DNA of 51,378 nt from Brenneria salicis ATCC 15712 = DSM 30166. Lineage in GTDB: Bacteria; Pseudomonadota; Gammaproteobacteria; Enterobacterales; Enterobacteriaceae. The stretch covers positions 1 to 51,378 of the forward strand of contig NZ_QNRY01000029.1 in the NCBI RefSeq assembly GCF_003315515.1, in the 5' to 3' direction. A program made the position numbers and the translations under genes. Of this stretch, positions 41,499 to 50,618 are shown one piece after another; position 1 is the stretch's first letter; each line of letters opens with the position of its first letter. The notes beneath the pieces are model-generated. The model was not told the origin of the DNA and did not search any database. It saw only the letters and a list, made by a program, of their open reading frames with translations.

Positions 41499-41590
41499 GC
41501 TGAGAAAATTTAGAACGAAAAATAAGCGTAGTGATACTACTAGGAACCACCTCCTTGGCCCGCTCAATCTCCCTTGAGCGGGCTTTTTCT
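41499..41590 (+). ncRNA. cyaR: CyaR small regulatory RNA
   Basis: Hfq-dependent sRNA, about 90 nt. Seen: a 5' end GCTGAGAAAA like that of E. coli CyaR, the seed region AGGAACCACCTCC(TT) that is the conserved target-binding part, then a terminator hairpin GCCCGCTCA (41558-41566) / TGAGCGGGC (41575-41583) with TTTTTCTTTTT, keeping the loop sequence ATCTCCCT of E. coli. It lies between trhP (yegQ) and yegS, the same neighbourhood as in E. coli. It has a CRP site at -41.5. Known targets elsewhere are ompX, luxS, nadE and yqaE mRNAs. The 5' third has diverged from E. coli. Confidence 0.93.
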
Positions 41591-44876: not shown

Positions 44877-44910
44877 CCAACCGGCGATCAAGAAGGCGGC
44901 AACCGGTTGG
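44877..44910 (-). promoter_or_regulatory. Expression-platform hairpin covering the thiM ribosome-binding site
   Basis: On the - strand CCAACCGG (44910-44903) pairs perfectly with CCGGTTGG (44884-44877). The last two bases of the second arm overlap the GGGAG ribosome-binding site (44878-44874), so folding would restrict ribosome access. This supports translational control by the adjacent aptamer. Confidence 0.7.
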
Positions 44911-44917
44911 CATACCG

Positions 44918-44991
44918 TGACTTCCCTCCGCTGGCATTATCCAGTTCAGGTAATACGGGTATTTCTCAGCCCTTGCGGACACCCCGAGTCA
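44918..44991 (-). ncRNA. TPP riboswitch (thi box) of thiMD
   Basis: Read on the - strand: P1 TGACT...AGTCA closes the element; inside are GGGGTGTCC, the invariant CTGAGAAATACCC, ACCTGAACTGGATAATGCC and GCGGAGGGAA, all diagnostic of the thi box. It lies 46 bases before thiM. In the thiamine-pyrophosphate-bound state it should shut off thiM translation through the downstream hairpin. Confidence 0.97.
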
Positions 44992-44999
44992 TTGATAAC

Positions 45000-45413: not shown

Positions 45414-46805
45414 GTGGGATATGCAACAACCAATCCGTATACGGGCGAAGTTATTAAAACCTTCCCAGACGCCACTGACGCTCAAGTCACTGAAGCCATC
45501 ACGAAAGCACATAACGCCTTTCTGAAATGGAAAGAGGAATCGTTCTCAACGCGCGGCGCGATATTGCAAAAAGCGGCCGATCTGTTGCGTCAGAATCAGG
45601 AGGAGTTCGCACGTTTGCTGACGCTGGAAATGGGAAAACTAATTGGCGAAGCACGTGCGGAGGTCGAATTGTCCGCCCAAATCTTCGAGTACTATGTGCA
45701 TAATGCGGAACGCTTACTGGAACCTGAAACGCTGCCGGTCGCCAACCCAAGAAAAGCGACGGCGCAGGTGGTTCATGAACCCCTGGGCGTGCTGCTGGCT
45801 ATCGAACCCTGGAACTTCCCGTACTATCAGATTGCGCGCATTATTGCGCCGCAACTTTCCGCGGGTAATACCATGCTCCTGAAACACGCATCAAACGTTC
45901 CGCAAAGCGCCGCCCGTTTTGAACAACTGATGAAAGACGCGGGCTTGCCGGATGGCGCATTCACCAACCTGTACGCCAACCGCCAGCACATCGAGATGAT
46001 TCTGAACGATCCGCGGGTACAGGGCGTCGCGTTAACTGGTTCGGAAGGCGCCGGGGCAATGGTGGCGCAACAAGCGGCGAAAGCGCTGAAGAAATCGACG
46101 TTGGAATTAGGCGGCGCCGATGCGTTTGTCGTTCTGGCTGACGCCGATTTGGAAAAAACGGTTAAATGGGCCGTGTTTGGCCGCCACTGGAATGGCGGTC
46201 AGGTTTGCGTCTCCTCCAAACGCATGATCATCGTTGACGAGGTATACGACGAATTTCTTGAACGCTATACAAAGGGCGTTGCCGCACTGCGCGCTGGCGA
46301 CCCGTTTGATGAAAACACCACCCTCGCCCCGCTTTCTTCGCAGGATGCCGTTGAAGAAGTCAAAGAAAAAATCCAGTTGGCCGTTTCTCACGGCGCGGTG
46401 GCGGTGGAAGTCGGCCCGGCAGTACCGCAGCAGGGCGCTTTCGTTCAACCGACGATCCTGACGGATATCACCCCCGATAACCCGGCTTATCACATGGAGT
46501 TTTTCGGCCCGGTTTCCATGATCTTCCGCGCCAAAGATGAAGATGACGCGGTCTTCATTGCCAACGACTCGCCTTTCGGCCTTGGTGGTTCCGTATTCAC
46601 ACGCGATACGGCGCACGGCGCGGAAGTTGCGAAACGCATCTCAACGGGGATGGTGTACATCAACCATCCGACGCGGGTGAAAGCCGACCTGCCCTTCGGC
46701 GGCGTTCGGCGTTCGGGCTATGGACGTGAGCTCATCGGATTAGGCATCAAAGAGTTTGTTAACCACAAATTGATTTCTATTGTCGATATTGATGCTGAGT
46801 TTTAA
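45414..46805 (+). CDS. sad: NAD-dependent succinate-semialdehyde dehydrogenase, Sad/YneI type
   Basis: 463 aa, GTG start at 45414 twelve bases after a perfect AGGAGG. Class I aldehyde dehydrogenase: EPWNFPYYQ with the conserved Asn (NAD site), LTGSEGAG, general base E231 in LELGGADAF and nucleophile C265 in GGQVCVSSKR. The lack of the SAHQFTGKTC-like loop of GabD and the N-terminal YATTNPYTGEVIKTF point to the Sad group, which oxidises succinic semialdehyde to succinate in GABA or related catabolism. It is a single gene with no gabT beside it. Confidence 0.88.
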   Translation: MGYATTNPYTGEVIKTFPDATDAQVTEAITKAHNAFLKWKEESFSTRGAILQKAADLLRQNQEEFARLLTLEMGKLIGEARAEVELSAQIFEYYVHNAERLLEPETLPVANPRKATAQVVHEPLGVLLAIEPWNFPYYQIARIIAPQLSAGNTMLLKHASNVPQSAARFEQLMKDAGLPDGAFTNLYANRQHIEMILNDPRVQGVALTGSEGAGAMVAQQAAKALKKSTLELGGADAFVVLADADLEKTVKWAVFGRHWNGGQVCVSSKRMIIVDEVYDEFLERYTKGVAALRAGDPFDENTTLAPLSSQDAVEEVKEKIQLAVSHGAVAVEVGPAVPQQGAFVQPTILTDITPDNPAYHMEFFGPVSMIFRAKDEDDAVFIANDSPFGLGGSVFTRDTAHGAEVAKRISTGMVYINHPTRVKADLPFGGVRRSGYGRELIGLGIKEFVNHKLISIVDIDAEF

Positions 46806-46918
46806 GGGCGACGCGATGTGCGTAATGAAAATGAAGACACTCTCTGACGTCATCGCCCGGCAAAAGTAATTCTTTATCGCCCCTGTAATTGATTGAAAAT
46901 ACCGTCCTCCAGCACTCG

Positions 46919-47716
46919 TTATGGCTGAAAGACGGTATTCTGTTTCGCATTCTCTTCCGCATTATTGTCATAACCGAGTCGGCCAATAAACGGCAAGCGC
47001 AACGCTGGGGGATTGACATCCACCCCCAGATTGACGCCCAGAATATTAGCCTCAAAGCCTTCTTCCACGCCAATGGTCATGCCGAGAACCCCCAGCAGCG
47101 ATATCTGTAGCCCTCGGCCCGACGGCGGTAAACCAATCGGACGCGTCAACGGTCGGTAATCTTTACCGATGGCGTTGGCGGGCAAGTCCAGTTTCAATTG
47201 CGGCACTTCCCTGCCGATATGCGCGATAAAGGTATTGCTATTCGGCCCCGGCCAGGCCCGATAGGTTTGCGGCCAGGGATAACTTTTAATCGCGGCTTCG
47301 ATCTGCGGGATCATGGCTTGCGCCTGCGCGCCGCGATGTTCCACCAGAAGCTTTGGCGTCGCGCCGTACCAGAATCCGTCAGGAAGCGAGCGGTTAAGAC
47401 GCACCACGTCATCGCTGCCCCAACTGACCACCTCGTAACGGCGATATTGCATTTCCCCGGCGTTCTTGAAAATAATCCACGGATGAACCGCGACCAGACC
47501 GCGCCAGCCATAGGTTGGCGCGGCATAAACCTGAACGATGGCGGTACTGCGCGACCGCATCGGATCCGGCGCGATCCCGGCTGAATCGCGCCGTGACGAC
47601 CACCAGCCTTGACCACTCAATGTCTCTCCATTACCGGTTGAATGCGCCCAACTCTGCCAAAACGACAAAAGCAACACACAGAGAAAACCAAGACTCAGCA
47701 CTTTTAGGTACGTCAT
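46919..47716 (-). CDS. DUF3750 domain protein, secreted or membrane-anchored
   Basis: 265 aa if started at the ATG at 47714-47716 (MTYLKVLSLGFLCVLLLSFWQSW); a longer reading to 47815 has no better ribosome-binding site. A hydrophobic N-terminus (about 4-20) suggests a signal anchor or signal peptide. The body matches what I know as DUF3750: STAIVQVYAAPTYGWRGLVAVHPWIIFK, YEVVSWG, YRAWPGPNSNTFIAHIGREVPQL and LPPSGRGLQISLLGVLG. Its function is not known. It is transcribed away from the LepA-like gene and towards sad. Its C-terminal codons fold with the downstream AATACCGTC to give a possible terminator stem. Confidence 0.75.
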   Translation of the reverse strand: MTYLKVLSLGFLCVLLLSFWQSWAHSTGNGETLSGQGWWSSRRDSAGIAPDPMRSRSTAIVQVYAAPTYGWRGLVAVHPWIIFKNAGEMQYRRYEVVSWGSDDVVRLNRSLPDGFWYGATPKLLVEHRGAQAQAMIPQIEAAIKSYPWPQTYRAWPGPNSNTFIAHIGREVPQLKLDLPANAIGKDYRPLTRPIGLPPSGRGLQISLLGVLGMTIGVEEGFEANILGVNLGVDVNPPALRLPFIGRLGYDNNAEENAKQNTVFQP

Positions 47717-47891
47717 AGGCCATTGATCCACTGAAAAGACATTTAACATGAACATTAACGACATCAAATGCGCGGAGAAACCGTCGCCGCAAGAAAATCG
47801 GGATGTCGTGCGCACAAGCTTGCATATCGAAAATGGAATGCGTTATCATCCACCCCGGCTACCTACTTTTACATCTTTTTGATTTTTCGTT

Positions 47892-47907
47892 CACTGAATA
47901 TTCAGTG
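47892..47907. promoter_or_regulatory. 16-bp perfect palindrome upstream of the LepA-like gene
   Basis: CACTGAATATTCAGTG is a complete palindrome in a T-rich region, 71 bases before the LepA-like start and in the divergent region with the DUF3750 gene. It has the look of a dimeric repressor operator. It does not fit the LexA, ArgR, TyrR or Fur consensus properly, so the regulator is unknown. Confidence 0.5.
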
Positions 47908-47977
47908 TGATTTCTCTTGTCCGCTCGATTGCCAGTACTGGTTGATAAGCGGAACAGTGATGTAAAAGGCCATTTCC

Positions 47978-49777
47978 ATGTCATTTTCCTCCATTCGTAA
48001 TTTTTGCATTATCGCCCATATCGACCACGGTAAATCCACGCTTGCCGATCGTTTTATTGAGTTAACCTCTACCGTGGCCCAGCGGGACATGCGGGAACTG
48101 CTGCTCGACTCAATGGATATTGAGCGTGAACGCGGCATCACCATCAAGCTGCAAACAGTGCGCATGCGTTATCAGAGCGATGAGGGCCGACAGTATCAAT
48201 TCAATCTGGTGGATACGCCGGGACACGTTGATTTTTCGGCGGAAGTTTCACGCAGCCTGGCCGCTTGTGAAGGGGCGATATTGCTGATTGATGCCACGCA
48301 AGGCGTTCAGGCCCAGACCATCGCCAATCTCAATCTGGCGCGACAACATGGGCTAACCATACTGCCGGTCCTGAACAAAATTGATAGTCCGCAAGCCGAT
48401 ATCGATAACGTGATGCGGCAACTGGCCGACATTCCCGCACTGGATATCAGCACGGTGTTGTCGGTATCGGCCAAAACCGGTGAAGGCGTGGCCGCCGTGC
48501 TCGCATTCATCGCCCGGCATTTCCCCTCTCCGCGCGGCGAATCGCATGACCCACTCAGGGCGTTGGTCTTTGACTCCCATTACGATCCTTATCACGGCGC
48601 CATCATGCATGTGCGTATTGTGGACGGCAGCATCAACATCGGCGATCCCCTCTGTTTCATGTCATCCGGTTTTCGCTTTGAGGTCACTGAAACCGGGGCT
48701 TTCCTGCCTGAGCGCCAGCCGTGTAAAAAACTGGATACCGGAGAAGTGGGTTATATCGCAGCCGGGATTAAAGATGCAGGCGCGATCCGGGTTGGCGATA
48801 CCCTGACGCTGGCGGCCAATCCCGCAACCGAAGCAGTTTCCCGCTATCAGGAGATGAAGCCGATGGTGTTTTCCGGGCTCTATCCCGATGCCGATGACGA
48901 TCTTAAAGGATTGCGCAACGCCATGGATAAACTGTCTCTTAATGATGCGGCGCTGCACATTGAGCCGGAAGTCTCCGCATCGCTGGGCGCGGGCTTCCGC
49001 TGTGGTTTTCTGGGTATGCTGCACATGGATATTGTCCGTGAGCGCCTGAAACGGGAATACGGCATCTCGGTGATTGCCACCGCACCGAGCGTTGAATATC
49101 GCGTCTGGTTACATAACGGCCAATGCCTGAGCGTCGATAATCCGGCTCATTTTCCGGGTGAAGACGTGCTGAATTACGTCGAAGAACCTTATGTGGTCAG
49201 CACCATTCATACGCCGGATACGTATGTCGGCGCTATGATGGAGTTTTGCGCCTCCCGGCGCGGCGAGTTTGTGGATATGCATTATCTGGACGGCGGCGCC
49301 GTGCGTCTGACCTGGGAGATCCCGCTTAATGAGATGGTTTTTGGCTTTTTTGATACGCTGAAATCTCTTACCCAGGGCTACGCCACGCTCGATTACGAGT
49401 TCTCAGGGTATCGCCGCGCCGATCTGGTGCGCTGCGATATTTATCTCGATAACCAACTGGTGGATGCCTTTTCTTTTATCATCGCCAGACAAAAAGCCTG
49501 GACGCGAGCGTCCGAAATCGTTAAAACACTTAAATACGTCATCCCACGCAAGCTGTATCCGGTGCCGGTACAGGCAAAAGTGGAAAACCGCTTTATCGCG
49601 CGGGAAGATATCCCGCCGTTGCGTAAAACCGCGCTGGCGCAAGGATTTCAGGGCAGCGTATCGCAGAAACAACGGCTCATTCGCAAGCAACGCGAAAATA
49701 AGAAACACAATATCGGGTTTTCAAAACGGGAAATCCCGCGTGAGGCGTTTATGGCGATTTTAGCGATTGACAGGTGA
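47978..49777 (+). CDS. lepA: Divergent elongation factor 4 (LepA) paralogue
   Basis: 599 aa, full length for LepA. Ribosome-associated translational GTPase fold. All G motifs are intact: G1 AHIDHGKST (13-21), G2 ERGITIK (51-57), G3 DTPGH (79-83) with the catalytic His83, G4 NKID (133-136) and G5 SAK (164-166). The LepA-specific C-terminal domain is present, but its near-invariant tail is altered: where E. coli has LAKCYGGDVSRKKKLL this has LAQGFQGSVSQKQRLI (553-568). By recollection it is only about half identical to E. coli LepA, far lower than other genes here, and it has no lepB-rnc-era context. A second, canonical lepA elsewhere is therefore expected. The ribosome-binding site AAGG is modest. 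It may be co-transcribed with the downstream chorismate mutase. Confidence 0.88.
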   Translation: MSFSSIRNFCIIAHIDHGKSTLADRFIELTSTVAQRDMRELLLDSMDIERERGITIKLQTVRMRYQSDEGRQYQFNLVDTPGHVDFSAEVSRSLAACEGAILLIDATQGVQAQTIANLNLARQHGLTILPVLNKIDSPQADIDNVMRQLADIPALDISTVLSVSAKTGEGVAAVLAFIARHFPSPRGESHDPLRALVFDSHYDPYHGAIMHVRIVDGSINIGDPLCFMSSGFRFEVTETGAFLPERQPCKKLDTGEVGYIAAGIKDAGAIRVGDTLTLAANPATEAVSRYQEMKPMVFSGLYPDADDDLKGLRNAMDKLSLNDAALHIEPEVSASLGAGFRCGFLGMLHMDIVRERLKREYGISVIATAPSVEYRVWLHNGQCLSVDNPAHFPGEDVLNYVEEPYVVSTIHTPDTYVGAMMEFCASRRGEFVDMHYLDGGAVRLTWEIPLNEMVFGFFDTLKSLTQGYATLDYEFSGYRRADLVRCDIYLDNQLVDAFSFIIARQKAWTRASEIVKTLKYVIPRKLYPVPVQAKVENRFIAREDIPPLRKTALAQGFQGSVSQKQRLIRKQRENKKHNIGFSKREIPREAFMAILAIDR

Positions 49778-49872
49778 TGATTTATCGCACACTTACGACT
49801 GGAATTATCATGGGTATATTTAAAACAATGTTCAGTCAATATCGATCCACTAAAAGAGGGATTTATGATTAA
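49777..49872 (+). CDS. Possible 31-aa linking ORF between the LepA paralogue and aroQ
   Basis: The ATG overlaps the LepA-like stop (TGATG), and the TAA at 49870-49872 lies just past the aroQ start at 49865, so this tiny frame bridges the two genes by overlaps at both ends. It encodes MIYRTLTTGIIMGIFK followed by a basic tail. It contains the AGAGGG ribosome-binding site of aroQ. It may serve only for translational coupling or may be chance; no homologue is known to me. Confidence 0.35.
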   Translation: MIYRTLTTGIIMGIFKTMFSQYRSTKRGIYD

Positions 49873-50437
49873 GGGTGATAGCCATTTATCTCATTATCTT
49901 CAGTATTTACTTAAACCTCATATTTTATGCTGGGCGGTATTCTCTTTTTGGGCATTAACCGCCCAGGCCGGCAAGAATGAGAAAATAGCGCAACTGATTG
50001 ATCAGCGTTTGGATTATATGAAAGATGTCGCTGGTTATAAGGCTGAAAATCATTTGCCTATCGAGGATTTGCCCCAGGAGCGTAAGGTGATTGAAAAATC
50101 ATTGGTTGAGACAGAGTCTTTGGGCCTGGAAGGGGAATCCGTCAGGAATTTTATGATTGCACAAATCAGCGTGGCGAAAACCATTCAATATCGCTATCGC
50201 GCCGACTGGCTATCCGTGCCGGAAAAAAACTGGAAACCGCGGGATTTGGCGGATATCCGGCAACGGATTAGCGCGCTGAGTGACGCCACTATCCGGCAAA
50301 TCGCCGATGAACTAAAAAACAAACGCGGCGTTAAAGTCGATTACTGTTCATCAATCCAGACAATGCAACGGCATAATCTGAAAACGTCCGATAAAGAAAT
50401 GCTTTGTTTGGCGTTAAATCAGATCACATTGAAGTAG
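49865..50437 (+). CDS. aroQ: Secreted/periplasmic chorismate mutase, AroQ-gamma class
   Basis: 190 aa. An N-terminal hydrophobic segment (about 18-33) ending in TAQA-G gives a probable signal-peptide cleavage near residue 35. The mature all-helical domain follows the gamma-class pattern: IAQLIDQRLDYMKDVAGYKAENHLPIEDLPQERKVIEK, with R48, K59 and R73 as likely substrate-binding residues, then FMIAQISVAKTIQYRYRADW. A cysteine pair (C151 and C181) could form the C-terminal disulfide seen in this class. It converts chorismate to prephenate outside the cytoplasm. In several pathogens exported forms are suspected of drawing off host chorismate; that role here is inference. It begins 88 bases after the LepA paralogue, with no terminator between. 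Confidence 0.9.
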   Translation: MIKGDSHLSHYLQYLLKPHILCWAVFSFWALTAQAGKNEKIAQLIDQRLDYMKDVAGYKAENHLPIEDLPQERKVIEKSLVETESLGLEGESVRNFMIAQISVAKTIQYRYRADWLSVPEKNWKPRDLADIRQRISALSDATIRQIADELKNKRGVKVDYCSSIQTMQRHNLKTSDKEMLCLALNQITLK

Positions 50438-50557
50438 CGCCGATGGTGTCGTTTTAAATTATGATGAGTTACATCATGGCGGCATGATTTTCTATCAAAA
50501 AATAAGGTCTGCTCCGCAATACCTAACCGATCAAAAACCTGAGAAATAGGTATAAAA

Positions 50558-50590
50558 AAATCTGGAAATGTTTTCATTCCCGGATTTTTG
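50558..50590 (+). terminator. Intrinsic terminator after aroQ
   Basis: AAATCTGGAAATG (50558-50570) folds onto CATTCCCGGATTT (50575-50587) with one mismatch and one G-U pair, a 4-base loop, and a T run. It closes a probable lepA-like/aroQ transcript. Confidence 0.85.
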
Positions 50591-50618
50591 TTTGCCCGAC
50601 AGCATCCAATAAAGACGC

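Follow-up and report, generated by a model that had tools for sequence, protein, structure and literature searches.

TetM and TetO are accessory GTPases of the EF-G superfamily that spread by gene transfer. EF4 (LepA) is near-universal and was found almost always as a single copy in a survey of 191 genomes, in which Pirellula carries two lepA copies (PMC1780047), and a lepA_2 gene (lp_3120) is listed for Lactiplantibacillus plantarum (PMC8953754). The role of EF4 is disputed, with back-translocation, sequestration and 30S assembly under discussion (PMC4342817, PMC8874680, PMC12787274), and in E. coli and Salmonella it is loss of lepA, not its gain, that is reported to raise antibiotic tolerance (PMC13090387). 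According to PMC4339808, Tyr554 of EF4 touches 23S rRNA and the CCA end of the P-site tRNA, and a Gly-Gly linker connects the last 44 residues of the protein. A search of open-licence literature yielded no description of a subfamily of second EF4 proteins.

The window analysed here, a 51,378-nucleotide stretch of the Brenneria salicis genome (contig NZ_QNRY01000029.1, forward strand), contains an intact open reading frame with an ATG start (lepA2, 47978-49777, +) that encodes a second EF4/LepA protein of 599 residues. It passes the equivalog threshold of the NCBIfam EF4 model TIGR01393 (798 bits, cut-off 534) and features the domains GTP_EFTU, EFG_C and LepA_C in this order, the last of these with a weak score (90 bits, cut-off 29.7). 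An earlier note on this DNA, made from the window alone, had described the gene as a lepA paralogue with an intact GTPase core, not located beside lepB and more divergent from its E. coli counterpart than its neighbours are, and all three observations hold. Motifs G1-G5 and the catalytic His83 (His81 in E. coli) are retained, and across 18 aligned sequences their core residues do not vary, with the exception that the SAK motif ends in Arg in the Rhizobium copy and some of the LepA2 sequences. The flanking genes encode a DUF3750 protein (upstream) and a chorismate mutase (downstream), and a canonical lepA was found on another contig (L002), in the order rseC-lepA-lepB, the identity of the two neighbours there being taken from the E. 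coli locus. LepA2 is 46% identical to this host copy and 45% identical to E. coli LepA, to which the host copy is 91% identical; the neighbouring mdtD-baeSR DNA, for which divergence was compared, is 69% identical to the best E. coli record over 99% of its length. An AlphaFold model built from 30 sequences (mean pLDDT 80.7) has EF4 structures as its best matches in the PDB, with a query-normalised TM-score of 0.84 to ribosome-bound EF4 (4w2e); its low-confidence stretches are residues 43-58, 84-88, 552-554 and 573-583, such that the rewritten tip discussed below is poorly modelled.

LepA2 thus shares with housekeeping EF4 the GTPase motifs, the catalytic histidine, the domain order, the LepA_C domain and the fold, but differs from it in sequence, in the loss of Tyr554, Gly555, Asp557, Arg560 and Gly571 and the gain of a DIPPLRK motif, in its mobility, and in having its own promoter and leader. 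It is comparable to TetM and TetO as a transferred accessory GTPase of the EF-G superfamily, but scores far below the cut-off for the tetracycline ribosomal protection proteins (NF012153, 161 bits against 775) and has LepA_C. Pirellula is likened to the carriers of lepA2 by copy number alone, as another case in which a genome has more than a single lepA. The second lepA genes of lactobacilli are similar in that an extra EF4 accompanies the normal one. The four copies considered here (from Levilactobacillus, Apilactobacillus, Nicoliella and Leuconostoc; lp_3120 is not among them) are 41-49% identical to the window protein, are devoid of CYGGD, and feature PPLRK and the G571N change; three of the four adjoin TetR or HxlR genes.

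The most distinctive part of LepA2 is its C-terminal domain (residues 490-599, 49445-49774, +). The score for LepA_C (Pfam PF06421) is 90 bits for the window copy and 97 for a Rhizobium copy, compared to 155-182 in five other LepA proteins, whereas G domain scores are 181 and 180 compared to 184-193. Residues 553-568 read LAQGFQGSVSQKQRLI and include neither CYGGD nor RKKK, as the earlier note had pointed out. At the tip, which reads GFQGS, residues F557 Q558 G559 S560 (49646-49657, +) align with Tyr554 Gly555 Gly556 Asp557 of E. coli EF4, i.e. Tyr554 is replaced by Phe, Gly555 by Gln and Asp557 by Ser. YGGD is present in 36 of 37 canonical proteins and in none of the 15 second copies of the tree set described below, all of which are altered at both Tyr554 and Gly555. 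The changes therefore affect the CCA-contacting tyrosine and the Gly-Gly hinge, with the roles assigned to these residues in PMC4339808. Chance does not account for the change in the tail: every one of the ten LepA2 rows differs from the canonical residue at 13 of 34 conserved columns in the C-terminal domain compared to 7 of 139 elsewhere (Fisher test, p = 2.3e-6), a conserved column being one kept in at least 97% of 38 canonical LepA sequences, with 11 of 17 enterobacterial rows omitted against redundancy. Counts are the same in the domain and nearly so elsewhere with all 49 canonical rows (13/34 and 7/138), and the contrast persists with proteobacterial or non-proteobacterial references only (p = 0.016 or better in six settings). 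Eight of the 49 canonical rows, taken as controls, depart at 0-3 of 34-35 columns in the domain and at 0-6 of 138-143 columns elsewhere. Since the conserved CYGGD tip with Tyr554 and the Gly-Gly linker is missing, we call LepA2, on this sequence evidence, a divergent second EF4 rather than a canonical EF4, although CYGGD is a conserved trait of EF4 and not a criterion for naming the family. A change at the same site of EF4 that arose independently was noted in six otherwise canonical LepA proteins of Secundilactobacillus and one HBUAS/JCM-type relative (L071, L074, L078, L080, L095, L110), in which IHTGD replaces CYGGD; the one such genome checked (L071) has a single LepA match.

Genes of the LepA2 type are patchily distributed. 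Two EF4 genes are present in 3 of 9 genomes of the genus and in 1 of 198 in a sample of the family (E<=1e-100), and a LepA2-type gene in 3 of 392 family genomes (E<=1e-205). At strict cut-offs, the type was found in 1 of 398 genomes of a phylum sample, namely the window genome itself, in 0 of 394 genomes of the family to which genome G437 belongs, probably Rhizobiaceae, as the LepA of G437 is 94% identical to that of Sinorhizobium, and in 0 of 398 Bacillota (E<=1e-218), a threshold too strict for the lactobacillar second copies. In E. coli, lepA2 DNA matches 5375 of 5426 genomes at one place each, with no match covering more than 80% of the query, and the 20 matches listed are canonical lepA. 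A wider scan of genome contigs with exact peptide patterns of the window protein, in which the best 80 of 359 loci were kept, recovered nine loci with 81-98% identity to LepA2, the next best having 54%: two in Brenneria, one each in Ewingella americana E4, Pectobacterium carotovorum, P. polonicum, P. aroidearum and Pectobacterium sp. PL152, and two in Enterobacter sp. 10-1. Together with a further genome (G356) and the window, this gives 11 enterobacterial copies. The nearest named relative found, Brenneria izbisi (L047), has a 98% identical LepA2 at the same site. The gene is full length in 9 of the 10 further copies, the exception being the frameshifted copy of the PL152 assembly, in which canonical lepA is interrupted as well; several neighbouring genes are also broken at this locus (L055), which looks like an assembly error. 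The two copies in Enterobacter sp. 10-1 (NISF01000009, L053/L054) have diverged from each other and are located on the same contig, separated by about 23 kb; a convergent MipA-family gene, with homologues beside two other loci (L048 and L129), comes after each.

A unit of approximately 1.96 kb (47830-49788, +), comprising 148 bp upstream of the gene, the reading frame and 11 bp downstream, is common to unrelated chromosomal sites. When positions 46801-50600 were compared with 15 loci by blastn, matches began at 47817-47830 and ended at 49770 in Pectobacterium, 49778 in Ewingella, 49781 in one Enterobacter copy and 49788 in the other three. In a relative (G203) the DUF3750 and chorismate mutase genes are 262 bp apart (L153, 4888 to 5151), compared to 2,075 bp between the same points in the window (47716 to 49792); this empty site was either never filled or emptied by loss. 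In the other five genomes of the genus that were compared, no more than one of the two flanking genes was matched in the stretches read. Synonymous divergence (dS) between this genome and Enterobacter sp. 10-1 is 0.29 for LepA2 compared to 1.68 for canonical LepA, and lepA2 thus arrived by horizontal transfer. The corresponding values are 0.09 and 1.51 for Brenneria hezel4-2-4 and Enterobacter, and 0.56 and 2.33 for this genome and Ewingella. The order is reversed for this genome and Pectobacterium (LepA2 1.63-2.00, canonical 1.05-1.29), and recent transfer is not supported for this pair, because dS of LepA2 exceeds that of the canonical gene. The suggestion of the earlier note that EF4 was duplicated in this lineage did not stand: the dS comparison points to transfer, LepA2 groups with other second EF4 proteins, and a lineage duplication is ruled out by the tree, the AU test and dS. 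Assembly contamination is unlikely, as the separate assembly of B. izbisi shows the same junctions with 94% identity.

The transferred unit carries its own control region. A sigma-70-like promoter, TTGCAT-18-TATCAT (47820-47849, +), retains TTG, the 18-bp spacing and TATCAT in all 11 copies; a consensus promoter scan did not list it because its first hexamer matches at 3 of 6 positions. It is followed by a structured 5' leader (47856-47977, +), predicted from folding and alignment to form a three-way junction. In the predicted fold, the strands of stem P1, CTTTTACATC (47866-47875, +) and GATGTAAAAG (47959-47968, +), enclose a hairpin P2, CACTGAATATTCAGTG (47892-47907, +), in which one A-U pair is G-C in the Pectobacterium copies, and a stem-loop P3 (47917-47957, +). 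The 3' strand of P1 overlaps the Shine-Dalgarno sequence AAAAGG (47964-47969), such that P1 pairs with the Shine-Dalgarno region, whose predicted unpaired probability is 0.01-0.19 at 37 C. The same fold is predicted for the leader of about 120 nt in all 11 copies (z -2.6 to -5.4, 0-2 of 200 shuffled sequences doing as well); z is -0.6 to -4.2 for five shorter pieces. P1 is invariant save for one U-A/U-G pair and one broken cell of the alignment, and being nearly invariant gives little covariation. Compensatory changes occur in P2, P3 and the inner pairs, mostly between Pectobacterium and the rest; there are 18 cells with changes on both sides of a pair, a value reached in none of 500 shuffles. 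Three of five measures of covariation lie above all 500 shuffles and two do not (pairs changed on both sides, 213/500; further pair types, 478/500), and independent events are few because the leaders represent effectively two lineages, Pectobacterium and the rest.

A model of this leader has three matches in the nine genomes of the genus, with 150 first-look candidates scored per genome, all at lepA2; it matches neither canonical lepA (L132, L170) nor the empty site nor the Rhizobium copies. Rfam 15 has no family over 47856-47977, at the gathering score or at E<=1, and a scan of the loci of five relatives gave no match. A match to AsrC within the gene (47992-48050, minus strand, 20.5 bits against a gathering score of 111) was taken as lepA homology on the opposite strand. 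An RNA thermometer was rejected, the predicted unpaired probability of the Shine-Dalgarno sequence being at most 0.19 from 15 to 45 C in all 11 leaders, and so was a leader peptide, as inspection of the leader alignment by eye revealed no conserved reading frame. An AUG start codon with a stop codon right behind it (UAA, or UGA in Pectobacterium) overlaps the Shine-Dalgarno sequence at 47960-47965 in all 11 leaders; its conservation may come from that of P1 alone.

Relatives of LepA2 are also found outside the enterobacteria. Levilactobacillus parabrevis and Apilactobacillus nanyangensis have a second LepA, with tails that also do not feature CYGGD, and further relatives are located on plasmids of Leuconostoc (13 plasmid records) and Nicoliella (one). 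The lactobacillar second copies score 573-600 bits against the LepA2 query. The best plasmid match, with 62% identity, is on pMK-3 of a Rhizobium strain whose pMK-2 carries a truncated copy. Since this copy is truncated, and 8 of the 13 Leuconostoc records listed have the gene in two parts, the gene is often dispensable. Carriage by phages was rejected: a first scan of viral contigs gave no copy, and in a second, alignment-based scan PPLRK was found in none of the full LepA-like reading frames among the best 80 of 92 loci, by a tail filter that can miss copies and did miss L213/L215 and L218.

In all trees the window copy falls outside the sampled canonical LepA proteins, and joining it to the enterobacterial LepA clade is rejected (AU test, p = 1.6e-9). 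In a 52-row tree, in which 12 of 17 enterobacterial canonical rows were omitted and the root position is not fixed, one branch separates 37 canonical proteins from 15 second copies (support 100/99, and 100/98 with the C-terminal domain removed). Grouping the lactobacillar second copies with canonical Lactobacillaceae is rejected (p = 3e-6); the join of the enterobacterial and Rhizobium copies with the lactobacillar ones involves long branches. The second copies share F524Y, D557S and G571N in all 15 cases, as well as D(I/V)PPLRK (DIPPLRK at residues 544-550 of LepA2, 49607-49627, +), which occurs in none of the 37 canonical rows; the strict pattern R.D[IV]PPLRK.A fits 14 of the 15, the remaining one having V for the last A. 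LepA2 is thus best read, from its sequence, as a horizontally transferred accessory member of a divergent group of second EF4 proteins.

It could instead be the ordinary LepA of an unsampled lineage, acquired by transfer and doing the same job as the resident LepA. The EF4 equivalog cut-off is passed, the AU test does not reject a joint group of LepA2 with all proteobacterial LepA (p = 0.26, 60-row set), and the trees were sampled without Bacteroidota, Planctomycetota, Spirochaetota and others, all of which would fit. Nevertheless, 9 of 34 conserved columns in the C-terminal domain, at which 36 or all 37 of the canonical rows agree, depart in the enterobacterial, Rhizobium and lactobacillar groups alike, compared to 1 of 139 elsewhere. 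A full-length canonical LepA is present in 8 of the 9 carrier assemblies checked as well as in the window genome, and a conserved promoter and leader belong to the unit itself, all of which makes this explanation unlikely.

The preferred reading of LepA2 as an accessory, regulated EF4 also draws on the genes next to its relatives. In Rhizobium, a MarR gene upstream overlaps the second lepA by 4 bp; in two lactobacilli a TetR gene adjoins or overlaps it, and in the three Leuconostoc plasmids read an HxlR gene lies 129 bp upstream (assigned by Pfam on one), while the Nicoliella plasmid has no adjacent regulator gene. In Enterobacter sp. 10-1, each of the two copies has a TetR gene upstream, at a distance of 1.1 and 2.6 kb. 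At the Leuconostoc kimchi plasmid loci (L216, L217, L219), the second EF4 lies near genes for NAD(P)H-binding, thioredoxin and MBL-fold proteins, a metal-sensitive regulator and an FAD-oxidoreductase.

On balance, LepA2 probably serves as a regulated accessory EF4 that acts at the peptidyl-transferase centre under stress. As a member of the EF4 family with its fold and intact GTPase motifs, it would most likely bind the ribosomal A site and hydrolyse GTP like EF4, and the rewritten tip may make a different contact with the CCA end of the tRNA and the peptidyl-transferase centre. Pairing of the leader RNA with the Shine-Dalgarno sequence would keep LepA2 low until chemical or translational stress switches it on, both the induction and the kind of stress being suggested by the leader and the regulators of relatives. 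When ribosomes stall or are disturbed at their peptidyl-transferase centre, LepA2 could then remodel them in a manner beyond the ability of housekeeping EF4. The role under a special stress proposed in the earlier note seems more likely given the leader RNA and the regulator-linked relatives, whereas a simple protective role is disfavoured by the higher tolerance reported upon loss of lepA (PMC13090387). More speculatively, and with considerable doubt, the second EF4 proteins of enterobacteria, Rhizobium plasmids, lactobacilli and Leuconostoc plasmids might form one dispersed, mobile, ligand- or stress-regulated subfamily, its tip rebuilt to rescue or protect ribosomes jammed by a particular class of inhibitor at the peptidyl-transferase centre; in its enterobacterial members, a leader RNA of a new class would conceal the ribosome binding site and so exert control. 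LepA2 is a genuine second EF4 under selection; its tip is rewritten and its control region conserved. An additional, apparently regulated EF4 with a changed CCA-contacting tip and hinge represents a natural experiment on the function of the tip, which carriers of both copies make testable by simple gene removal, and a transferred, altered EF4 in some plant-associated bacteria gives fresh access to a protein about whose function there is debate.

Target replacement or ribosome protection, by which LepA2 would confer tolerance to a natural inhibitor of EF4 or of the peptidyl-transferase centre, appears improbable. The part of the protein that reaches this centre is altered, at each of the two Rhizobium plasmid loci an RND efflux pair runs divergently from the MarR-lepA2 pair, RND genes lie within 10 kb of lepA2 in two Pectobacterium loci (L050 and L052), and relatives are linked to TetR and HxlR genes. 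However, the two Rhizobium loci belong to one strain and may reflect one event, the mdtD-baeSR efflux genes 9 kb upstream of lepA2 are also present in E. coli, and no biosynthetic or resistance family was recognised by NCBIfam or Pfam among eight nearby reading frames of the window; the tolerance data cited above, from other species, also argue against it. The earlier note had mentioned a decoy for an EF4 inhibitor, which low dN/dS does not by itself exclude. That lepA2 is a passenger, selfish or neutral and without function in the host, as its patchy occurrence and the broken copies in Leuconostoc and on Rhizobium pMK-2 might suggest, is very improbable, as dN/dS is 0.041-0.177 across all 45 pairs of the ten intact enterobacterial copies (frameshifted PL152 left out), indicating purifying selection, and the promoter and leader are conserved in 11 of 11.

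Two known RNA elements score above the gathering threshold elsewhere in the window, a TPP riboswitch upstream of thiM (44906-44996, minus strand) and the CyaR small RNA gene (41505-41589, +).
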